A DNA stretch of 64,000 bases, taken from Steromphala cineraria (lineage: Eukaryota > Mollusca > Gastropoda > Trochida > Trochidae). This document shows positions 8,970 to 59,710 of this stretch, one piece after another. Position 1 is the stretch's first letter. Each line of letters opens with the position of its first letter. The DNA lies in assembly GCA_916613615.1 (NCBI GenBank), contig OU744731.1, forward strand, positions 57,976,289 through 58,040,288. Reading direction: 5' to 3'. The position numbers and the translations under genes were made by a program. The notes below the pieces were generated by a model that saw nothing but the letters and a program-made list of their open reading frames with translations, searched no databases and was not told the origin of the DNA.

Positions 8970-9336
8970 TTAAAGAACTTGAAATGAAAATATTTCTTTC
9001 TGAAAAAATAGTGGGTGCTGTAGGTATTAGATGCTTAATATAATTTAAGACTAAGTGGATAAACTCTTTTGACAGTCAGTAATTGCGATTCAGGTTTAGA
9101 GTTGAGAAATTTGTCCCTGAAAATAAAGATTGTTTTATGCATAGGCTTGTTCACAACCATAATACTTAGTTTACCACATTTGATCTACCAGCAGCAAATT
9201 GATTTTTTTTTTGTTATCGCAAACGGTTTATACTCGTCAGCAACCTGTTCGATATATGTAAAGCAGGCAGGCGTGTTTCAAACTTTTTCATCAGCAACTT
9301 GTTAGTTATTGAATTTCACCCAGTTTACTTATAGAG

Positions 9337-9482
9337 AATACTACACGAGGTCTCATTAGATACGAATTATACGAAACGAGTGTCCTTCCGGCGGTATCTG
9401 GCCGAGCGAAAGCGAGGTCAGATACCATAGGAAGGTCACGAGTTTCGTATAATTCGTATCTAATGAGACCGAGTGTGGTATT
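9337..9482. repeat. 146-bp palindrome with stable mini-hairpin tip
   Basis: Arms of about 65 bp pair almost throughout; both carry GTCTCATTAGATACGAATTA. The exact centre is CCGAGCGAAAGCGAGG at 9402-9417. Folded, this tip gives C-G, C-G, tandem G-A and A-G mismatches, G-C, C-G and a GAAA loop. GCGAAAGC is known as an unusually stable DNA mini-hairpin. Cruciform potential is high. Confidence 0.9.
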
Positions 9483-10523
9483 TTATTTATTACACACGTT
9501 TAGAATAGACACATTTGTTAATAATCCTCATTTTCTTGTATGGCATCAAGGAAACAATTCCGAAAACCCGAAACCGGTTTCAATAACCGAATGCGTAACA
9601 ATCGACGTTCGTGATGCGACCAGTCCATTTTACGCAGTCGCTCATTTAAACATGCGACGAAAGAAAATAGTTTCGAGTTTCGGTTATATGAACCAAAATA
9701 AGAATGTCAAAAATAGCCGAATTCATAGATGATGAGTTTTGATTAACGATTATTTAATGATTGGTACAAAAAGTGTAGAATGTAAACATTCAGAGTCAGA
9801 GTCGAATCTGTCACCGCTCTCCTCTTGGTCGGCTCGCCATGTTCAAGCGTCAAGGCTGACGAGTGTCGGTGTGGCTGGACTAGCGGAAACATTGGCTCTG
9901 TTGAAAACGGATTACTAACCAACGGGTAATGTGATGGCAGATCTTTAATTTGAAACAAACGCCATTTCGAACTTTTCTAGGTACTTAAAATGAAACGATA
10001 GAATCGATATGGATAATAATGAAAACAACGACGTGCTCGGAGAGTGACGGGGACCCGACATGTTAACGGGAAGGGCAAGGTCATCGACTTGTGTAGCTAA
10101 TGCGTGTTTGCCGTTTGGGGATTCTGTTCCTGACTCCGTGACTGCATTTTAAAGTTGTTCCTTCTCATTGCTTGTCACATTTGATAGCATATATATTTGG
10201 CTTGATCGACCTGTTATCACTGACAAACCGTGCATGATGCGATGTCCGGGTGTTGAACTTACTAAAAATATTATTAATGCATTCGCTGATTTATTATTTT
10301 TCATAAAATCGATTTTGCACACTGATCAAATCGTATGTTTTCTAAGAATCTGTCTATGTATCAACTATTTTAAGTATATAAAGCGGTAAACTTGAAGAAA
10401 TGACATGTTTGTTGTTAATTCGAAAAAAGTTCCGTTTTAGTTGACCCTAAATGAGAGGTCATTGGTTAACCAATCAAATCTGTGGAATGCGAGGTCATGT
10501 TGTTACGACACAGGTCAACGCAA

Positions 10524-10543
10524 TACGACACACGTGTGTCGTA
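10524..10543. repeat. Perfect 20-bp palindrome
   Basis: TACGACACACGTGTGTCGTA is its own reverse complement, centred on a CACGTG E-box, and lies just inside the right end of composite C1. It could be a dimeric protein-binding site for element or host factors; this is inferred from symmetry alone. Confidence 0.75.
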
Positions 10544-11082
10544 CGAGATTAGTATGCCACCACTTGTACGTTACCTACGTGTGTAATAAAATTGGACATC
10601 ACCTTGTAAAGCTTCTGGCTTTAGTGAGATGTTTTTGATAATACGTACTTTCAAATCATCACCGTTCATCTTTGAACTGTAGACTGCCCTTGCACCAAAT
10701 ACTATATATTAGTGGTATAAATCGAAAGCTTGATTAAGGCAATTGTTTGAGAGGTTTGCTTTGAAAATTGCTTAGATAGTGTAACGACTACATCACATTT
10801 CAGAGAGTCAATGTCTCGGTCATTTTGAGCTACTGTATGTAAACGTCGTCTCCGTATGGATTGTTTTTTTTATCTATCAAGTAGTTTGTGTAATTTGCCT
10901 GAAGTCCCTTTTAGTAATACCTGTGTACACCCTCTGCGTTGATGTTTTTGTAGTTATGTGACAAAAGGTCAATTATTAGAACACATGAGTCACTGTATCA
11001 GTCTCATTCAACATTCATTAGACCCATTGCTTATCCTTCAGACTTCACTTACTAACGTGGAATCAATGGGAGAGTGTCTTAA

Positions 11083-13155: not shown

Positions 13156-15089
13156 GATGTCATTTAAAAATTTGCAAATTCGGTTCATCTGATTACTTTT
13201 AAAGTACTTGAAATATACTTAATACTGTTTTTAATATATAAAGACAATTGAGAGTAATTGTGTTCGCAAGAGGCAGAGCACTTTGAAGAGACAGGACAGA
13301 ACAGTAGAAAATGTTGAAATGTTTACAATGTTATTCTATGGAGGACAATAATATGATATGGTTCACACCTGTGTTAGGTTATATGCTAATAACTGAACTG
13401 AGTTTTGTTTGATGCCATATACATGAATAACGTTGAGATTGAGATGTTTTTTTCATGACTTAAAACTTGACATTGACTTGACATTATTAGGTTTAAGCAT
13501 AGATGCACGAAAATATTTGGTTTTATCATGGAAAATGTATGTTTTTATTCTGTTCACCAAATCACATGAGATAAGGTTCCATCGATATATCTGACATGTA
13601 TGTGTTCTACTTTGCCTTAATCATACGGTAAGCATCATCTTGCTGGGGGGTACTGGGCATAACCTAATAACATTCTCAATTTAACCTTTTCAAGAATAAT
13701 TGATGAAGATGATGACCTACAAAGTTTTGCTTTGAGGCAGTTGCCGTAAGCTTGAAATTGAAGAGTCTTCAATTAATTTCAATAACAATAAATTATATTC
13801 ATTTTGTTTCTCTCATTTCTACAAAGAATATATGATATATCTAATATTGATTTTCCTTTTATACTTACCAATACTTAAAACAGGCCCGTTTCATGCTCGG
13901 TTATAAGATGATAAACAAACGGGTTAATGCAATCATGTATGATAGCAGGACCTTAACGAAATCTGGCCAAATTATCAATAATGAAACGTTTTAGTTCTAC
14001 AACATTCAATGAGAGTATTTTCATTTAGAACACATCAATTTACAAAGCCTGTTTTAGATCAGCACCCTGCTTTGGTAGAACTTTTGTCTGAGAGGGAGGT
14101 GACTTTAAACGAGCTACCACTATGTAGCTTTATGTAGTTTATTTTGATCAAATGCTATTCAAATTCGATCAATGTTGGTGGTTATTTAAGAAATGAATTT
14201 AATTTCTGACGAAATCGCACTTTTAGCATGCTTTATCTTACGTCTATCTATGAATACTTATCTAGTTGACTAGATCGATATTTGAAAGGATTGTTATCAT
14301 TTTTCATCATACTTACGATTGTGAAAGCCCAATGTTCTGTCTTTTACAAAATTAAGCAGAATACATTAGTTATACAACTGTAGATAATCACCATATCAAT
14401 AGAAAACAATGTTGCAACATAAATAAGTTACCAAAAACAGCTAGATTTTAAAGTAGGCAGTCAAAGAGAAGTAAGGCTTTGAATCCCTGTTTTTGTTATC
14501 AGCCATATTCTAGTTGTATTGCTTGATACCTAGAAATTCAAATAAATAGATAGAAATCAAATATCTTAATTCTGATGATGACGTCATCCTCTTGTCATAC
14601 TTCAAGCACAGCGTCACTATAACCATATTTGCAATATCGATATGAAAAACAGGACGATTTTGAGTATGTACAAACGGAAAATATGATGATCGAACATAAT
14701 ATACAGGACAACCATAACAATTCATCAAAGTTTAAAAATCCCATTGGTTTAAAAGAGGTAAACGTAGACACCAATGGGAATGGAACCATTGTCCCATGAG
14801 CAACACTCCTGTCTCACTACTTCAATTCAACATTATAAGCCGATAAATCACAAATCTCTGGGGTCTTTTCACTATAAACATGCATGGCTCTGATTGACTA
14901 ATACAATGTTGAGGCAATCAAAGCACCATGTCAACAACCAGACAATGTATATTACCTCGATAAGCTCATTTTATCTGTCCTTGGTACGAACACATCAAAC
15001 ATCAAACACAAGCTATGGATTGTCAAGACAAGCGACTTGTTTTGTTTTGAGGTGTTCGGTGCGATACTGTTTAAACTTTTGTATGTATA
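13156..15089. other. Non-coding stretch with diverged repeats
   Basis: AT-rich. 13640-13790 loosely matches 45000-45110 (CTCAATTTAACC, then TTCAAGAATAATTGA). 14755-14930 is a third copy of the repeat at 12065. Overlapping frames at 14510-15198 on both strands show no domain. Nothing else is seen. Confidence 0.6.
14755..14930 (+). repeat. Diverged copy of the 12065 repeat
   Basis: Shares AACGTAGAC, CATTGTCCCATGAG, TCTCACTACTT, CAAATCTCTGG and ATGCATGGCTC in order with 12100-12230 and 49240-49375. Fragmentary; no coding function. Confidence 0.6.
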
Positions 15090-15364
15090 GGTTATATACT
15101 CCTTTGAGGTTGATATGGGATATACAGCCCGAGGCGAAGCCGAGGGCTTTATAGCCCATATCAACAGAAAAGGAGTATATAACCGTCTTACACAACATGG
15201 GACATCAATTTAGAACTTATTTTTCTATTTTGTTAAAAAAGATTTTAAAATAATTAGGAAAAAAAAGTATTTTTCAGGCTGAAGTAATCCACATAACACA
15301 CCTAGGTGGTTATGTCAAATAGCAACCTGTAAAGACAAAGGAAATAATCTCCCGCGTTGTGTAA
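15090..15364. mobile_element. Composite palindrome element C2
   Basis: A 95-bp palindrome (15090-15184) is followed after three bases by a 177-bp segment bounded by the inverted repeat TTACACAAC (15188-15196) and GTTGTGTAA (15356-15364). The arms share GGTTATATACTCCTTT and GTTGATATGGG. The tip at 15129-15145 is CCGAGGCGAAGCCGAGG, exactly at the centre of symmetry. It folds with tandem G-A mismatches above a GGC-GAA-GCC stem that contains the very stable GCGAAGC mini-hairpin. The architecture matches C1 and C3. No coding sequence. Confidence 0.75.
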
Positions 15365-32236: not shown

Positions 32237-33590
32237 TGGTTTCCTATCAGGGGGATTACAGCTCCTCCTATACCACAACATCGACTAGAGCTGGTTATCT
32301 ATCAGGAGGGTTACAGCTCCTCCTATACCACAACATCGACTAGAGCTGGTTATCTATCAGGAGGGTTACAGCTCCTCCTATACCACAACATCGACTAGAG
32401 CTGGTTATCTATCAGGAGGGTTACAGCTCCTCCTATACCACAACATCGACTAGAGCTGGTTATCTATCAGGAGGGTTACAGCTCCTCCTATACCACAACA
32501 TCGACTAGAGCTGGTTATCTATCAGGAGGGTTACAGCTCCTCCTATACCACAACATCGACTAGAGTTGGTTATCTATCAGGAGGGTTACAGCTCCTCCTA
32601 TACCACAACATCGACTAGAGCTGGTTATCTATCAGGAGGGTTACAGCTCCTCCTATACCACAACATCGACTAGAGTTGGTTATCTATCAGGAGGGTTACA
32701 GCTCCTCCTATACCACAACATCGACTAGAGTTGGTTATCTATCAGGGGAATTACAGCTCCTCCTATACCACAACATCGACTAGAGCTGGTTATCTATCAG
32801 GAGGGTTACAGCTCCTCCTATACCACAACATCGACTAGAGTTGGTTATCTATCAGGAGGGTTACAGCTCCTCCTATACCACAACATCGACTAGAGTTGGT
32901 TATCTATCAGGGGAATTACAGCTCCTCCTATACCACAACATCGACTAGAGCTGGTTATCTATCAGGAGGGTTACAGCTCCTCCTATACCACAACATCGAC
33001 TAGAGTTGGTTATCTATCAGGGGGATTACAGCTCCTCCTATACCACAACATCGACTAGAGTTGGTTATCTATCAGGGGAATTACAGCTCCTCCTATACCA
33101 CAACATCGACTAGAGTTGGTTATCTATCAGGGGAATTACAGCTCCTCCTATACCACAACATCGACTAGAGTTGGTTATCTATCAGGGGAATTACAGCTCC
33201 TCCTATACCACAACATCGACTAGAGTTGGTTATCTATCAGGGGAATTACAGCTCCTCCTATACCACAACATCGACTAGAGTTGGTTATCTATCAGGGGAA
33301 TTACAGCTCCTCCTATACCACAACATCGACTAGAGCTGGTTATCTATCAGGGGGATTACAGCTCCTCCTATACCACAACATCGACTAGAGTTGGTTATCT
33401 ATCAGGGGGATTACAGCTCCTCCTATACCACAACATCGACTAGAGCTGGTTATCTATCAGGGGAATTACAGCTCCTCCTATACCACAACATCGACTAGAG
33501 CTGGTTATCTATCAAGGGTATTACAGCTCCTTTTGTACCACAACATCGACAAGAGCTGGTTTTCTTTCAGGAGAATTATAGCTCCCCGTG
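32237..33590 (+). repeat. 55-bp minisatellite, about 24 units
   Basis: Unit pattern: TTACAGCTCCTCCTATACC, then ACAACATCGACTAGAG, then (C/T)TGGTTATCTATCAG and a five- or six-base variable block. Two variable positions (CTGG or TTGG, and GAGGG, GGGAA or GGGGA) define unit types. From about 32620 to 33075 they cycle in threes, a 165-bp higher-order repeat. The left third is nearly all one type and the later part another. The last two units are diverged. Each unit can form a small hairpin between AGGAG and CTCCT. A 55-base period cannot keep a reading frame, so the overlapping frames here are artefacts. Confidence 0.97.
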
Positions 33591-36397
33591 TACCAAAGAT
33601 ACACAAACACTTTCCATCTTTTCAATATTGTGGTTATAAATCAATCGAGTATGTTTGTTGAACACGGTAGGGTTTTACCTTGCTCTTTTCTTATAAATGA
33701 TCTATTAATATGAACGTAGAATGTTGACAAATTGTATCCATGTTATATTGTTGACTAATAAAACCACACTTGGTTGTTGGACGAATTACATCTCCCAATT
33801 ATATGAATAAAAACGAAGCTGGTTTTAGACAAAATATAATGACATTGCTGTTTGAGCCGTTGTATGTAAGACCGCATTTACAAGCGTTGCTATACACACT
33901 ATTGAGAGATAGATTTTTGACCAATTGGAGTGATTGGACATACTGATCGCTATATATGTTGATCACTATGTATCCCTGCAGCTTTCAGTTGATAAGAGAA
34001 TGATCCACAAACACCTAGCCAAGCTGTTAGTGTCATCATATCAATGTGGGATTTACTCCAGAGAATATTACCTGAATCTATATATCAAAGTAACCTTTTT
34101 ACTGCGCAGGTAACCTGTTAATCTCGTTAGCTCTGGTTGAATGTTGATAAATTGAAACAAATACACCAGTTGACATGCATTGATATTGACATTTAGCTCT
34201 ACTAATGACGGTTTAATCCCTTACACTTTTCTGTTTCATGCATATCAGTGATTGACGACTTCAGAGAAGCAAACATAGGCAATCAGCTTGTTACTGTCTA
34301 ATGTGAACTATGTATTATCTGACTTCTGTCCAAATATGACCAAATCAGACCTAACTTCGAAGGTTTTCATTATGGTTTCTTAATTTCTAGCCCACTTGAC
34401 TCTGTTTATTTGAACAGAAGCTAGTTCAAAATTTCATGACTTGACCTACATCAGTAGGGAGAGAATGCAAGTATTGTAACTGTGTTGCAATATTATTTTT
34501 TTCATATTTTCATGCAGAATTGAAAGATCTTATCACAATTGTACTTGAATTACGCTTTGGTTACTTTAATTTGATCTGTGTAACATCAGTTCAAAACCAA
34601 TAATTCATAGAGGGTATGTACCCTCACAAATAGACACTGAAAACATTAGCATCAGTCAACAACATGTAAAGCATGTATACGTCTAGGGTTGGTCTAAAAA
34701 CCTGTAAAGATCTACCGACAAAGACAATTATGTTTCTTCAACTTATTCAAATAAGGTCATAACCATTTTGTAAAACAAATCAGAATTAGAAAATCAAAAA
34801 ATTCAGTAGGTAGTACAATTAACTATCAGTATAACTTTGATGCATGAATGAACAACTTGATAAAAGATTTACCAGAAAAAGGTTCTCCACAGTATTTGCA
34901 TAATAGACAAGATGGAGATACACCCCCGCTCCATTAGCACTATATCAGATTGTCTGAACTGGAAGTATCTTGAGGATGAAAATGAGGGCGAAACGTCATA
35001 ACCAATAGTGTGTGATATAATGTATGTATGAAAATAATACCTACATAACAGAACTGACTATGTTGCAGGTTCTTTGTTCAGATGGAAGCGAATATGACTG
35101 ATATGTCTTAAATTTCATTTAGAGGTTTTGTTTACTGATTACCACTTCTAAAGAATTGATAATGTGGATGCCATTTCCCATGAAGCTTTATCAGTTTAGT
35201 ACAAATTAAGAAATGACAAAGACAAGGACAATGCATCGAAATGAGCTCGCAGATTAAGAAGTTGTGGTTCATAGATCTTGAACATAGATATTCCAACTTC
35301 GAATGTAAATGGCCTCAAATGAGCAGGTTGATGATTGTCTCGTGCTGATAAATGACAGTAGATGATGCACAAGCTTTCATCCAATGACTGTATTTCATGT
35401 TTTATTTTTAGTCACAAACTTAGTATTAATTTGCGAAAGAATTCATTGATTAATCAAACTACTGTTTAAATATTTAATAGAAAATATGCTACGAATTTAT
35501 TGCAACTATTTGTGTGCATTGCCATACAAAACCACATGTGATCGTTAATTTGTTTATTTGGTTTATGTATCTGAATCAGCATCACATTCATTATTTTTTG
35601 TTTGTTGTTATTTAGAAAGTTTGAAATGGACGTATAAGCTAAGGTGAGTGTAACTTAATACAATATCAGTAGGTATTTTAATTATGTTTTAATGAATTAT
35701 TCATAAGAATTCTCTAGGCGACAGGTCACCGTCGACCGGAAGTTATGACACAAGATAGAAATGATTAGTGATGATTATGTTTGTGTTGAATAAAACTGTG
35801 ACACTTACTCATCTGTTGTGTAAACTACACAAATGAACTAACAGGGTTTAAACTGCTATTACTAAGAGAGACTTCAGACATCACAACACATAACTTTTGA
35901 ATTTATGCCACGTATACAAATTGTACAACATATTTAAAAAAAAATTTAATCATGTTTTGAAAGTAAAACAATCACTTTCTACTTCGTTTGTTAAAATATC
36001 TGATACGTTCCGGACTGGTGCAGTGTCTATGTTGTTGTCTAGAAACAGTTATCTACTCCACCTGAAAATCTGATGTGCATCTTATACTAAATGGGTCACC
36101 CAACAAAAGGAGAATCAACATGCAACCAATTCGCGTGATACGTCTTTCAAATCAACGATGAACAGTGACATGTTTTGAAACAAAAATATTAACTTTATGG
36201 AAATATGAAGGTATACCATCTTTAACTTAAGTTTGCCATGATGATTTGTTACCCGTTGTTTTCTACTTATCCCACAAGAAAGCAGATTAATGACAGATAA
36301 ATTCGGAGTATTGTTTCAATTTCAAAATGTAATTTTTACCAATGAAAGTGGATGTATTTACCAGTTTACTTATTGCTGTAATTTTGTTGCTGGCAGT
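33591..36397. other. Non-coding stretch
   Basis: AT-rich and without a recognisable gene. 35935-36050 matches 41450-41570 (shared TTTTGAAAG, ATCACTTTCTACTTC, GTGTCTATGT), a diverged direct repeat flanking the minisatellite region. The frame at 35196-35384 (-) has no domain. Confidence 0.6.
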
Positions 36398-36994
36398 ATA
36401 ATCAAACTCCTGGTGATACTAGAGTGATTATTATAATCAAACTCCTGGTGATACAAGAGTGTGTATTATAATCAAACCTAATGGTGATACTAGAGTGTGT
36501 ATTATAATCAAACTCCTGGTGATACAAGAGTGTGTATTATAATCAAACTCCTTGTGATACTAGAGTGTGTATTTTAATCAAACTCCTTGTGATACTAGAG
36601 TGTGTATTTTAATCAAACTCCTGGTGATACAAGAGTGTATATTATAATCAAACCCTTGTTGATACTAGAGTGTGTATTATAATCAAACTCCTGGTGATAC
36701 AAGAGTGTGTATTATAATCAAACTCCTTGTGATACTAGAGTGTGTATTTTAATCAAACTCCTGGTGATACAAGAGTGTATATTATAATCAAACTCCTGGT
36801 GATACAATAGTGTGTGTTATAATCAAACTCCTGGTGATACTAGAGTGTGTATTATAATCAAACTCCTGGTGATACTAGAGTGTGTATTATAATCAAACTC
36901 CTGGTGATACTAGAGTGTGTATTATAATCAAACTCCTGGTGATACAAGAGTGTGTATTATTATCAAACTCCTGGTGATACTAGAGTGTGTATTA
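36398..36994 (+). repeat. 35-bp minisatellite, left half (about 17 units)
   Basis: Unit ATTATAATCAAACTCCTGGT followed by GATACTAGAGTGTGT, with variants CTTGT, ACAAGAG and ATTTTAAT. The array is interrupted at 36994 and resumes in phase at 39991, so it was one array before the insertion at 36995-39990. Confidence 0.97.
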
Positions 36995-38541: not shown

Positions 38542-39105
38542 AGTCAGACGACCTTCAAGAAAGAAAAAACGCACATTGCGAAGATAACAACGCTGGAAAC
38601 AACAGCAAATAACAGACTAAGAATATCAAACAAAAAAGATAAGTATTACTCCATTCACTCAATTATCAATAATTTAGATATAAAACATTACTAATTACAA
38701 ATAAATATAAATACAATTCAAACACAATTATTCAAATACAATTTTATCTTATCACAATTAAAAATACCATCTCAAATACTACTTTAAACCTTTTTACTTT
38801 TTACAATATAATTTCCATACATAATATATTCTTTCTATCTCTTTCAGGTACCACGCCATTTCACAGCACTATTTATTTACTGACTATTCATAAAATCAGC
38901 CCCCCCCCCCTCACTCTATTCCAAATTCTAAATTAATTTTAACCACTTTAGAACTTTTATTAATTTTACTTGGGTTCCTAAGACCTATTCTAAATTCCAT
39001 GCCCCTTTTTTGGGAAATAACTCAGGCTTAGACCCCACGTCGGCGACATCACCGTATGGTGAAGAAGACGTTAAACCCCAATCCAACAACAACATATCTC
39101 ACTAC

Positions 39106-39250
39106 ACAACTTTTATTAATTTTACTTGGGTGCCTAAGACCTATTCTAAATTTCATGCCCCCTTTTTTGGAAATAACTCAGGCTTAGACCCCACGTCGGC
39201 GACATCACCGTATGGTGAAGAAGACGTTAAACCCCAATCCAACAACAACA
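39106..39250 (+). mobile_element. Second tail-only LINE copy at the same target site
   Basis: Repeats the last 145 bases of the LINE (from ACTTTTATTAATTTTACTTG to the CAA tail) with a few differences. It is followed by a third copy of the target string TATCTCACTAC at 39251-39261. The frame at 39010-39288 spans the duplication and is an artefact. Confidence 0.85.
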
Positions 39251-39265
39251 TATCTCACTACCAAA

Positions 39266-39990: not shown

Positions 39991-40552
39991 GTGTATTATA
40001 ATCAAACTCCTGGTGATACTGGAGTGTTTATTATAATCAAACTCCTGGTGATACTAGAGTGTGTATTATAATCAAACTCCTGGTGATACTGGAGTGTGTA
40101 TTATAGTCAAACTCCTAGTGATACTAGAGTGTGTATTATAGTCAAACTCCTGGTGATACTAGAGTGTGTATTATAATCAAACTCCTGGTGATACTGGAGT
40201 GTGTATTATAATCAAACTCCTGGTGATACTAGAGTGTGTATTATAATCAAACTCCTGGTGATACTGGAGTGTGTATTATAGTCAAACTCCTAGTGATACT
40301 AGAGTGTGTATTATAGTCAAACTCCTGGTGATACTAGAGTGTGTATTATAATCAAACTCCTGGTGATACTGGAGTGTGTATTATAATCAAACTCCTAGTG
40401 ATACTAGAGTGTGTATTATAGTCAAACTCCTGGTGATACTAGAGTGTGTATTATAATCAAACTCCTGGTGATACTGGAGTGTGTATTATAATCAAACTCC
40501 TGGTGATACTAGAGTGTGTATTATAATCAAACTCCTGGTGATACTGGAGTCT
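39991..40552 (+). repeat. 35-bp minisatellite, right half (about 16 units)
   Basis: Same 35-bp unit as 36398-36994 but with different variants: CTGGAG alternates with CTAGAG, and TATAGTCAAA with TATAATCAAA. The alternation gives a higher-order pattern (a block of four to five units recurs). The left half lacks the CTGGAG variant, so the two halves are distinct variant domains. Confidence 0.96.
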
Positions 40553-43216
40553 GTAGTGGGACTGACAGAAAGGCAGAAGAAGCACACAAGATACTACAAG
40601 TTTAACATGCTTCTTTCAACATTCTTATCTTTGGGTTGATCTCAATCAAAGTTATAATGAAACTAAAGACAAGGCGTGTGTTCTTTATATTTACTTTTTC
40701 AGGTTAAAATATTGATGCATTTACAATTTTTCAAATATTCATATTTCGTCTTCAAATGCTTAAAATCTTCAGATTCATACATGTGTTTTTTTTATCCATC
40801 AATAATTTTTGAAATGTTACTTTACTTACATGTTCGAAAACGAGGAAAAACATTATTCAATATATGTCTTTGCTGCACATGCAGGATTTAGTTCTATAAT
40901 TGTTTCAACGCAGTCAACAGATCTTTTCAGTTTTCAGATTAAATCTGTAAATGATGTACTTGTCAAGGAGTCCACTTTATCTTAAAAGCATGTCATCATC
41001 TCAGCTCGAGATCGGAAATCGATTTTCTATTTTTGTTTCCTTAATAAACGTCCCATTGAACTTCATGCCCAGACACAAAGTTTATGATGAGAGAGAGAGA
41101 GAGAGATTCTTTATTTCCTCCAGTAGTCACCGAAGATTACATTTGACGAAGGCTACCAAATATCATGAAGGTACAAAATATGTAGTCACATGCAAGGTAG
41201 TATATTTCACTAAGTCATGCAATGATTTCAAGTTTAAAACAAACTAAAATATTGTTATTTGCAACAAATTCAATTAAAACACATTACACAAAATGACATT
41301 AAGAAAATAGGACGTCACAGATAGATTCACAAATGGTTCAATACACACGACCACGTCCCTTTATGTATCTCGATGAATATATGTGAATTTTTCAATTGTT
41401 TAATAACAAACATTTCTGGATATATGTTCAGTTCGACTATTGTCAACGTTAAAAATTGTAATTATGTTTTGAAAGAATTAAATCACTTTCTACTTCCATT
41501 TTTAACATAACTGATACTTTCCGAAATGGTTCAGTGTCTGTGTCTATGTAACGATTGATGTCTAGTTAGGAAAGCCTGTAAGTACGACAAGTACATTTGT
41601 CTGGGGTAATAGCAGGCAAACAAATGGAAACGCAATTACTGGAACATTTACAAATGAAGGCAATCAAATAGGCTTGCAGACAGCGTATCTTTATTTGTAA
41701 GCACTTATGAAGCTAACATCGTAGTGATGGCTTCTGTTTATTTCCTAAGTTGGCTTCTCAAACTGTTCATAGGAATGTACCCATTGACTTAACAAGTGAT
41801 ACATTGCGGCTACTGATAAACAAAGTTGTTAAACAAACTAGCGATTATCCAGGGACAGACAGGCGACTGTTATGTAGAGGTTCCCACATGAATAGTTTCT
41901 ACAATTACTTTTATAAGGCGAAACCATACATATATTCGTAAAAAAACATTTAAAAACATCACTCTTTCTTGGTATTCATTAATATGAAAGTCTTGATTTT
42001 TTATGGTACATCATTAATGTCGTATGCAATCAATTATGTTGACATATGTATGGGGTGTTCGCACTTATATATTTTTTCTTCATAAGACCAAGAAATCCAA
42101 TTTTGACCAAGGATCAGTATCTGAAACTTTTTAACAAACTTGTTGCAAGTTTTATGTAAATTGCATTTCTCAACATAAACATTTTCATAGCATGTGTTCT
42201 TTTTTTCTTAGTAACTGCAAACAAATATGAACATAAAAGGTTACTACTTTTATTACCTACAGATGATATTCAGATAAAAGTCTGCAGTCTTTTAAGTCAC
42301 TTCTTAATATATCACATACAAATATTTGAGTCAAGCTGGGCTGAAGTAGACTTGAAGGCGATGCTAGGGGAAATGCATCGACCAAGGAACGCCATCTGCT
42401 ATCTTGACAAGGACTCTTTAAAGGATTCTTTTGCATGTGTATTTTTTCATCATCGAAACTTCATTACAAAACAACTGCCTCTGACATTCTCTTTTATCTG
42501 GTTTTCAAGAATTATATTAGTGCATGTTCTTCTGACGCATGTTATCATGTGCTTGTTATTATGTCTTAAACTTACCTGAATGGATTTTTTCACACCTATA
42601 CAAAAGGTTAAAGTGAAAAGTATTTTGAAAATCACCTAAGTCAATATTTATGATTACTTAGAAAGATATCAAAAAAAGCATTTTTTTTTAAATGAGCGCC
42701 TTATAAACACACATCCAACCTCTAAAACTGTAACACGTGTTGAATGCTACTGAATCGTCTAAAAGCTAGTCATGTTGACCGTTATGCACCCAAACTAAAG
42801 CAGACCACACAAGGTCAAGATAAGTGAAGTTAGCGACACACAATCAATAACTGATTGATTATGATGAGGAAGTAATACGCTTGAACCAATTCAGAGAGTG
42901 GCCACTTAGTTTATTATAGCTTGTATTAACAGTTTGGCATTAAGTACAATACAATTAATCAAACATTAACATGAAACTCCATTATCTTTAGCAATCATCT
43001 TTCATTCTACATAGAAAATGATATCTTTAATATCATAAACCCTGAGGTTTAAATATTTTAAGAAATGAGGAATTTGAAACAAGTACACATTTAGAATATT
43101 TCCTTTGGTCTGGAACATAAATAGGTTTTATTGATAAGTTATTGTGACTTTTCATTCATAATTCTCTCTATATTTTCTTTTCTCAGATGGTTTCGGACAG
43201 AAAGAACGTTCAATAT
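40553..43216. other. Non-coding stretch
   Basis: No gene recognised. A (GA)n microsatellite of nine units lies at 41089-41106. 41450-41570 is a diverged direct copy of 35935-36050, and 41607-41720 an inverted copy of 6640-6765. Frames at 40676, 40951, 41750 and 42352 show no domain. Confidence 0.6.
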
Positions 43217-44580: not shown

Positions 44581-44805
44581 ACAGGATTTGGGGCATCTTC
44601 CTACGCAGAGCCTAAAAGGCCAGTTTCCAAACTGTCATGTTATGCCTTGCTGCATAGCCTTGCGTTTTCTGTGCTTGCTCTCTACTCTGTAGGGGCACTA
44701 TAGCAGCACAGAAAAGTAAAGTCTCTGCAGCAAGGCATAAAATGACAGTTTGGAAACTGACTTTTTAGGCTACGCGTAGGAAGATTGATTTTGGGTTGAT
44801 CCTGT
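44581..44805. repeat. Long fold-back hairpin (arms about 100 bp)
   Basis: Left arm ACAGGAT ... ATCTTCCTACGC ... GCCTAAAA ... CAGTTTCCAAACTGTCAT ... ATGCCTTGCTGCA ... TTTTCTGTGC pairs with the right arm in reverse order, leaving a loop of about 30 bases (44675-44704). The pairing is near-complete and no direct target duplication is evident. It could be a fold-back MITE or source of a hairpin RNA. Frames at 44471-44703 lie on the left arm and are not called. Confidence 0.88.
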
Positions 44806-58668: not shown

Positions 58669-59710
58669 ATTCTAACATGACACGAAAACTAGTTTGAAAA
58701 TACTGCGTTCTGATTGGTTACTCATAAACATTTTGGAGTAATTATTTCGCCGATAATCACCTCTAAATATTTACGACCGCTTCACATTCCTCCGCGCACG
58801 AGGATACAATCTGCACTCGGCGACTTTCTGTTTACAATAGACATGTTGGCGACGACGCTTTAAATTTCAATATCAGAAACTTGTCGACATTTTGAAACAC
58901 CTACAAATTTTAATCGAATAACCAGTTTTTTTGTTCCTGTTTGAAGTGTTTCTTACTGCTTCGCGATGTAAATTAATCACAGTCCACAGATCTAAAAACA
59001 AAATCAACGATCGCAACACCTCTCATACAGCGATTCGTCAAATGAAAGGAAGCGACTTTATTCTTTAATTTCGCTGAATGCTGTCACTGACCCTACCTCT
59101 AATTTACAAGTGACCACTTTTCCTGTCACAGTCTCGCCAACCATGACACCAAATATAACTTTCTTGACAGCTTCCACTAAGTTTGAAACAGTTCACCGAC
59201 ACGTAGTGAACAACTATTTTCAGAGTAACGTCCCTTGATTTGGTCAGTCCTTGTCGCTCTTGTAGGGGTGATAGGTCGACCCATGGATTTAGGTAAAAAT
59301 TCGTAACTTTGACGACATTGAAAACTGTTTTCTATTGATAATATGCTCAATAGATTACAGATGAGTCTATTTAAAAACGTGTTTTCTGTATGTAATGACA
59401 TTTTAATTGTTAGGTGTTCTGTATGAAAGTGAACTGTACCGTTGTTTTGCAAGTGAGTGGAACCGGTCTGCACCGGTTTGACCTAATCACATTGCTTTTG
59501 CGCAAGTCAAAATAGTTCCACCTTTTTTGACTAATTAGTCATGTTAGAATGGTGATAAATCCATTCTGTTTTTTATTTTGGGGTTGTATGTCGTGCATTC
59601 TTTACCCCTAAATAAACATTTCAAACCTCGCAAGCTCGGTTTGAAATTATATTTAGGGGTAAAAAATGCACGACATACAACCCCAAAATAACAAACAAAA
59701 TGGATTTATC
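58669..59710. mobile_element. Composite palindrome element C3
   Basis: An 882-bp segment bounded by a perfect 13-bp inverted repeat ATTCTAACATGAC (58669-58681 and 59538-59550) is followed after three bases by a 157-bp palindrome (59554-59710). The palindrome arms share TTTTGGGGTTGTATGTCGTG and TACCCCTAAATA. The tip at 59626-59639 reads, on the minus strand, CCGAGCTTGCGAGG, with the same tandem G-A mismatch arrangement as C1 and C2. The interior has more CpG than the background and a minus-strand frame at 59177-59473 without a known domain. Same layout as C1 and C2, mirrored. Confidence 0.72.

Follow-up and report, generated by a model that had tools for sequence, protein, structure and literature searches.

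The three long palindromes found in this window (the whole stretch of DNA that was analysed, 64 kb in length) are the terminal hairpins of three different multicopy mobile elements, P1, P2 and P3, which lie in the window with both ends and measure 1257, 280 and 1045 bp. The tip that the palindromes share, to which an earlier note had drawn attention, is not the whole signal, as tandem mismatches at phased sites along the stem have been kept in four families (A, B, C and P1) with diverged arms. We conclude that the elements are real and mobile, very recent in the case of P1, and under strong structural constraint. On balance, we lean towards the view that they are non-autonomous Helentron- or Helitron2-like elements, which have a structural ruler built into their folded strand and which insert precisely and free of a TSD.

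Three palindromes and the elements that they terminate

The pattern CCGAGN{2,9}CGAGG has 3 matches in the 64-kb window, at the places and on the strands that had been noted, compared with a mean of 0.02 in 100 dinucleotide shuffles, none of which reached 3. A long hairpin is centred on each of the three tips, with 15 (P1), 18 (P2) and 14 (P3) of the 20 flanking bases pairing without gaps. Folding of the CGAG strand as single-stranded DNA gave energies of -56.2, -35.5 and -71.1 for P1, P2 and P3, far below the minima of 200 mononucleotide shuffles each (-24.7, -21.1 and -20.1, respectively); the RNA folds of the palindromes are strong too. Compared by blastn, the three hairpins have no mutual match below E = 1. 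The earlier note overlooked two extra CGAG/CGAG pairs in the arms of P1, whose hairpin carries six direct CGAG copies (at 9346, 9377, 9403, 9413, 9439 and 9470) that are placed mirror-symmetrically, with steps of 31, 26, 10, 26 and 31.

The content of the window looks eukaryotic, with five ORFs of at least 120 aa in 64 kb, none of them inside P1, P2 or P3, with fragments of reverse transcriptase and RNase H and with a GC content of 33.6%, while a search of the window revealed no Rfam family at gathering score and no tRNA. A viral or bacterial origin was considered and rejected, as none of the 21 IMG/VR stretches that contain the 16-mer CCGAGCGAAAGCGAGG is palindromic there (ungapped pairing, best 14/30).

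That the tip is an isolated structure was ruled out by the element ends found. Most tip loci belong to families with sharp ends, and the elements follow a common layout, in which the start is the foot of the hairpin and the motif directly after the hairpin is the reverse complement of the other terminus. Both ends of P1, P2 and P3 are defined by this complementarity; the family starts were set by eye and are uncertain by 2-3 nt. The features are as follows:

9333..10589, plus strand: P1 mobile element, both ends, 1257 bp from AGAG (the true start may lie 2-3 nt earlier)
9333..9486, plus strand: P1 terminal hairpin
9346..9349, plus strand: P1 third-site CGAG, left strand (partner 9470-9473)
9377..9380, plus strand: P1 second-site CGAG, left strand (partner 9439-9442)
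9402..9417, plus strand: P1 tip CCGAGCGAAAGCGAGG, innermost tandem G.A site
9439..9442, plus strand: P1 second-site CGAG, right strand
9470..9473, plus strand: P1 third-site CGAG, right strand
9487..9499, plus strand: P1 internal 13-nt copy of the asymmetric inverted repeat, adjoining the end of the hairpin, TTATTACACACGT
10577..10589, plus strand: P1 3' terminus ACGTGTGTAATAA, which matches the reverse complement of 9487-9499 exactly
15085..15364, plus strand: P2 mobile element, both ends, 280 bp
15105..15109, plus strand: P2 second site on the left strand; in the window copy, TGAGG faces CAGAA
15129..15145, plus strand: P2 tip CCGAGGCGAAGCCGAGG
15188..15196, plus strand: P2 internal inverted-repeat copy TTACACAAC
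15356..15364, plus strand: P2 3' terminus GTTGTGTAA
58669..59713, minus strand: P3 mobile element, both ends, 1045 bp from GGGG
59626..59639, minus strand: P3 tip CCGAGCTTGCGAGG
59538..59550, minus strand: P3 internal inverted-repeat copy ATTCTAACATGAC
58669..58681, minus strand: P3 3' terminus GTCATGTTAGAAT

In the P2 copy of locus L113, the second site reads TGAG opposite CGAA. In P3, the AATTA that precedes GGGG lies inside the match of all 40 scored copies.

All three elements are present in many copies. The 40 scored P1 matches (558 candidates, window copy included) are all 99-100% identical over 211 bp; the flanks of ten copies that were fetched all differ, eight of these ten and the window copy have an intact 3' end, and TAT stands before AGAG in 11 of 11 copies. 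For P2, 40 of 40 were scored from 163 candidates, and the 39 besides the window copy are 96-98% identical, while for P3 (40 of 40, from 916 candidates) the corresponding 39 are 97-98% identical. In addition, 40 of 700 candidates were scored for family A, six copies of which are 98-100% identical over about 340 bp and have unique flanks. Copies within one family are not independent. The claim that the arms differ while the tip is kept is thus true between families only, where the spacing is kept too: because each palindrome is the end hairpin of a family of mobile elements, the arms within a family are as conserved as the tip (99-100% over the hairpin in P1).

Precise insertion can be read from the P2 copy in L113, which sits in a satellite array whose neighbouring units are uninterrupted. 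Comparison of the occupied site, GTTAT[280 bp]ACATTC, with the neighbouring units, GTTAT|ACATAG and GTTAT|ACATAC, revealed neither duplicated nor lost bases relative to the array units in this one copy of one family. By eye, no exact flank repeat was seen in the P1 and A copies; the A copy in L086 has TGCATAT near both ends, away from the boundaries. No A-tail was seen at the element ends of the A, P1 and P2 copies.

Some copies occur in pairs. At L113:64-1342, two P2 copies that are 100% identical over 280 bp face each other with satellite array between them, and facing pairs occur in family B as well. Two family G elements are arranged head to tail at L052:1762-5242, with a period of 1739 bp and 99.9% identity; the body of this family G element has two more CGAG hairpins by eye and a promoter- and intron-like look.

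Across the genome (1.27 Gb, containing the window at C38:57976289-58040288), 12,649 tips were counted, compared with 3,227 for the backwards-read pattern, and the corresponding figures for CCGAGCGNNAGCGAGG are 2,917 and 0. The excess of tips is if anything understated, because the fixed bases of the backwards-read pattern contain no CpG, a dinucleotide that the window has at just 0.63 of its expected frequency. Among the first 30 tip places listed for contig C1, which are not a random sample, 20 have at least 12 of their 20 flanking bases paired without gaps, as against 19 of 776 cross-pairings. Gapped stems were found in five of the other ten (L024, L026, L037, L050 and L051), L047 is degraded, and L022, L035, L039 and L048 are not palindromic there. 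These counts and pairings cover part of the genome-wide test that the earlier note had proposed.

Phased mismatches and the folded strand

In 29 folded hairpins, tandem mismatches (CGAG/CGAG, CAAG/CGAG or TGAG/CGAA) recur at regular distances from the innermost pair; these hairpins are those of the named families, with L022, L035, L039 and L048 left out as having no hairpin. The sites lie at 1/24/55 in A (L025), at 1/26/57 in B (L031) and in C (3/3 copies) and at 1/27/58 in P1, so that in these four families one site is near the loop, the second follows 23-26 bp further and the third 31 bp beyond, the difference between third and second being 31 in all four. Other families have sites at 1 and 27 (G), at 1, 25 and 49, plus 56 in L042 (E), and at 2 and 26 (P2). 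Based on hand-entered offsets of the fold results, a second-site mismatch at 24-27 was found in 7 of 10 families with F left out of the comparison, and in 7 of 11 with F. Sites have been lost in the copies L033, L034, L047 and L049.

The helix between the second and the third site is exactly 29 bp long in A, B, C and P1, and in all six family pairs 28-29 of its positions are Watson-Crick in both members, with 10-20 double changes, in which the pair differs on both sides, per family pair. In the left arm, C agrees with the other three families at 9-13 of these 29 bases. Since A, B and P1 have 17-18 of 29 left-arm bases in common, and A and B match by blastn, these three are diverged relatives rather than independent cases, which speaks against the reading that we favour, as do family F, which has the tip only, and families D, H and I, in which the 31-bp step is absent. 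Selection for a folded strand, which had been proposed from the tips, is well supported and extends beyond them, through the phased G.A sites, the compensatory changes and a bias of mismatches to one strand.

The compensatory changes also bear on the question of whether the elements could be ordinary cut-and-paste MITEs, with palindrome arms kept alike by gene conversion. High copy number and short inverted repeats would agree with such elements, and conversion can homogenise palindromes. However, conversion should erase CGAG/CGAG, yet the register of these sites is kept even though families differ from each other at 10-20 of the 29 pairs next to them; with both bases of these pairs exchanged and the mismatch sites unmoved, the pattern is not easily put down to arm-to-arm conversion. 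Furthermore, MITEs of this type have TIRs at both termini and a TSD, neither of which is seen here, as the repeat is terminal on one side only and the one clean insertion is without a TSD. We therefore regard this explanation as improbable. A protein that binds CGAG in double-stranded DNA, with the hairpin being incidental, would explain why CGAG is a recurring word and why the right-hand copy is mostly CGAG (variants are CGAA, TGAG and CAAG), but would not require the word to have the same orientation at mirrored places, or the arms to be complementary from one site to the next, and we consider it hardly credible.

Judging from the types of mismatches, the strand that folds is probably the CGAG strand. 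In 31 hairpins, this strand shows 74 G.T compared with 12 A.C and 145 G.A compared with 18 C.T mismatches, a count that omits 7 of the 30 tip loci (L022, L030, L035, L039, L041, L047 and L048, with fewer than 30 pairs) as well as P1. In addition, the CGAG strand is more stable than the opposite strand in all three window hairpins. By family, the loops comprise the tetraloops GAGA, GAAA, GACA, GCAA and GCTA, the triloops GAA and GTA, CTTG, and TTCA in family E. Very stable loops in DNA are cGNNAg, cGNAg and gCNNGc, while GNRA, UUCG and CUUG are favoured in RNA; the GACA and GCTA loops and the GNA triloops are thus suggestive of DNA rather than RNA. It is plausible that the folded strand is DNA and that it is read by a single-strand enzyme, as the earlier note had proposed.

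Alternatively, the function may lie at the level of RNA, with transcripts that fold and selection that acts on processing, packaging or retroelement copying. The preference for G.T wobbles on one strand and the strong RNA folds would be in line with this, and RNA also stabilises tandem G.A in CGAG as well as GNRA and CUUG loops. However, stable DNA loops that are not of the GNRA type are present as well (GACA, GCTA and the GNA triloops), and the precise ends, the lack of a TSD and the lack of an A-tail at the ends seen do not fit with LINE-driven copying, which makes selection on RNA unlikely.

Inverted repeats and the predicted joint

The inverted repeat that links the far end with the motif after the hairpin is 13 nt long in P1, P3 and C_L051 and 10 nt in D, and none of 1000 shuffled tails was as good in these cases. 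Repeats of 8 nt were found in A_L025, B_L044 and F_L043 (4, 3 and 9 of 1000 shuffled tails as good, respectively), and repeats of only 6 nt in family G (G_L052) and in C_L050 (47 and 87 of 1000). That of P2 is 9 nt long.

Folding with the ends joined predicted one continuous rod, with the joint in the stem, for A_L025, B_L044, C_L051, D, P1, P3 and F_L043, while in G a two-base bulge is next to the predicted joint and in P2 the joint coincides with an internal loop; A_L085, which was cut too short, was left out, and C_L050 was folded over a shortened stretch. Given the uncertainty of 2-3 nt in the starts, two extra bases in A, B, C, G and P2 would form a small bulge at the joint. From the predicted joint to the third site, the distance is 14 nt in L085, L044, L051 and P1. 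The B copies L031 and L032 do not have the two bases at the start, and their joint would hence sit at 12 nt. No core sequence common to the joints of all families was seen. Repeated TGACGTCA words were seen in the representative elements of families A, B, C, E and G; they are not a common feature, since the representatives of D, F and P1 lack them.

Here we propose that the CGAG strand of the palindrome, of about 100-165 bp, would fold into a rod when single-stranded, which in A, B, C and P1 would carry tandem G.A-type mismatches at fixed steps. The two ends of the element might be brought together by pairing of the far end with the motif after the hairpin, which would place the predicted joint inside the rod, with about 14 nt between it and the outermost G.A site. 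A transposase, possibly a Helitron-type Rep, would use the G.A sites and the loop to recognise the CGAG strand in its folded form, act at the joint by distance, and move the element via a single-stranded, probably circular, intermediate. In a more general form, which we put forward tentatively, this would represent a eukaryotic single-stranded DNA recombination in which the G.A mismatches of a folded rod, at steps of 31 bp and about 25 bp, serve as a ruler that depends little on sequence and from which the enzyme measures to the joint of a circular single strand, comparable to attC but outside bacteria. If this is true, the arms would be free to diverge while mobility stays. To our knowledge, end recognition by eukaryotic rolling-circle elements is poorly known, and the constant distances from mismatch to joint in families with diverged arms make it amenable to testing with short oligonucleotides, which could show that a eukaryotic transposase reads a folded single strand and not a sequence.

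Candidate enzymes and related systems

Of the enzymes that could move these elements, Helitron Rep is represented by 150 scored matches in the genome, and none of those inspected could be tied to these hairpin ends. Among these, 20 Rep loci that were inspected with 1.5 kb on each side contain no CGAG tip. In one Helentron group, stretches that fall short of the group ends (L078-L081 and L110) contain a single CGAG..CGAG match (L079), which lies outside the listed palindromes. The lack of an autonomous element with these ends among the Rep and recombinase loci examined speaks against the Helitron-like reading, and so do two further observations: for elements oriented as Helitrons are, transfer of the CTCG strand would be expected, but the bias is on CGAG, and the single insertion site seen is T|A, which is neither the TT of Helentrons nor the AT of Helitrons.

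Tyrosine recombinases likewise have 150 scored matches in the genome. Two candidate partners, L088 (Ngaro-like) and L089 (DIRS-like), were rejected, as no such hairpin ends are found in the stretches taken. The DIRS-like element in L089 has, at 1506-1810, an 87-nt inverted repeat that is 98% complementary with its halves 131 nt apart, and the part of it that was retrieved contains no phased CGAG hairpin. DIRS-type retrotransposons have an internal stretch complementary to both joined ends, as do the elements here, with the difference that P1, P2 and P3 are without any window ORF of at least 120 aa.

An integron-like reaction, in which the hairpin works as an attC site and a tyrosine recombinase binds its folded CGAG strand and exchanges strands at the joint in the stem, would agree with the presence of recombinase matches in the genome. 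In attC sites, the joint lies in the stem and the far end is complementary to the inner foot of the hairpin, and the rods predicted here have the same layout, with the joint in the stem in P1, P3, F_L043, A_L025, B_L044, C_L051 and D; that one strand is favoured and that one P2 insertion is TSD-free would fit as well. Against this stand the lack of such hairpin ends in L088 and L089 and of a joint core common to all families, and we judge the reaction to be quite unlikely. Integron attC sites are like the present hairpins in having a folded single strand with a strong strand bias, and their bottom-strand preference and the structural elements of the folded strand have been described (PMC6393395); they differ in that the host here is a eukaryote, the rod is longer, and tandem G.A sites take the place of extrahelical bases.

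The Helentron- or Helitron2-like reading, which we favour, is supported by published descriptions of Helentrons, HINEs and Helitron2, which include asymmetric or subterminal inverted repeats, a 3'-end palindrome beyond the inner repeat, the lack of a TSD and high-copy, gene-less derivatives (PMC4067079, PMC5148889, PMC7492417). Helentron-associated elements (HINE/DINE-1) and Helitron2 share with the elements here the asymmetric inverted repeats (here 8-13 nt, and 6 nt in G_L052 and C_L050), the lack of a TSD (here in one P2 copy in L113) and a terminal palindrome beyond the inner repeat, though the latter is far longer here, about 100-165 bp compared with the 5-10 bp given for mite HINEs. Differences from Helentrons and Helitron2 are the phased tandem G.A sites and a bias that favours the complement of the strand expected to be transferred, and while Helentrons and HINEs insert between T and T in T-rich sequence, the P2 site is T|A (GTTAT|ACATAC, one insertion in one family). 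The canonical Helitron (Helitron1), with 5' TC, 3' CTRR and insertion between A and T, differs from the elements here, whose termini are AGAG..AATAA in P1 and GTATAGG..GTGTAA in P2. Replitrons have direct terminal repeats and a TSD of 2-8 bp (PMC10741241), whereas an inverted motif, and no TSD in the case resolved, are found here.

Enzymes that act on folded strands and need irregularities in the stem are known from bacteria (PMC6393395, PMC8266576). The REPs of E. coli, which are acted upon by TnpA-REP, are imperfect hairpins with conserved stem mismatches that are required for enzyme activity, and in REP and IS200/IS605 systems guide pairing at the hairpin foot picks the cleavage site (PMC8266576). 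By analogy, the elements described here may work like the substrates of these bacterial enzymes; the E. coli REPs are 29-37 nt long with tetranucleotide guides 5' of the hairpin, compared with 8-13 nt on the 3' side here (6 nt in two representatives). Among the papers listed by searches on long hairpins of non-autonomous Helitrons, on Helitrons together with integrons and hairpins, and on these DNA loops and mismatches, no title or abstract beginning mentions hairpins with phased tandem G.A sites.

Apart from P1, P2 and P3, the window has a fourth long hairpin at 44595-44785, with arms of 81 nt that are 88% complementary, a spacer of 29 nt and no CGAG tip. In addition, it contains separate arrays of one 35-bp unit at 36397-36994 and 39991-40555, with a 156-bp duplication between them at 38952-39261, and a 55-bp unit repeated in 24.5 copies with 96% matches at 32237-33585.
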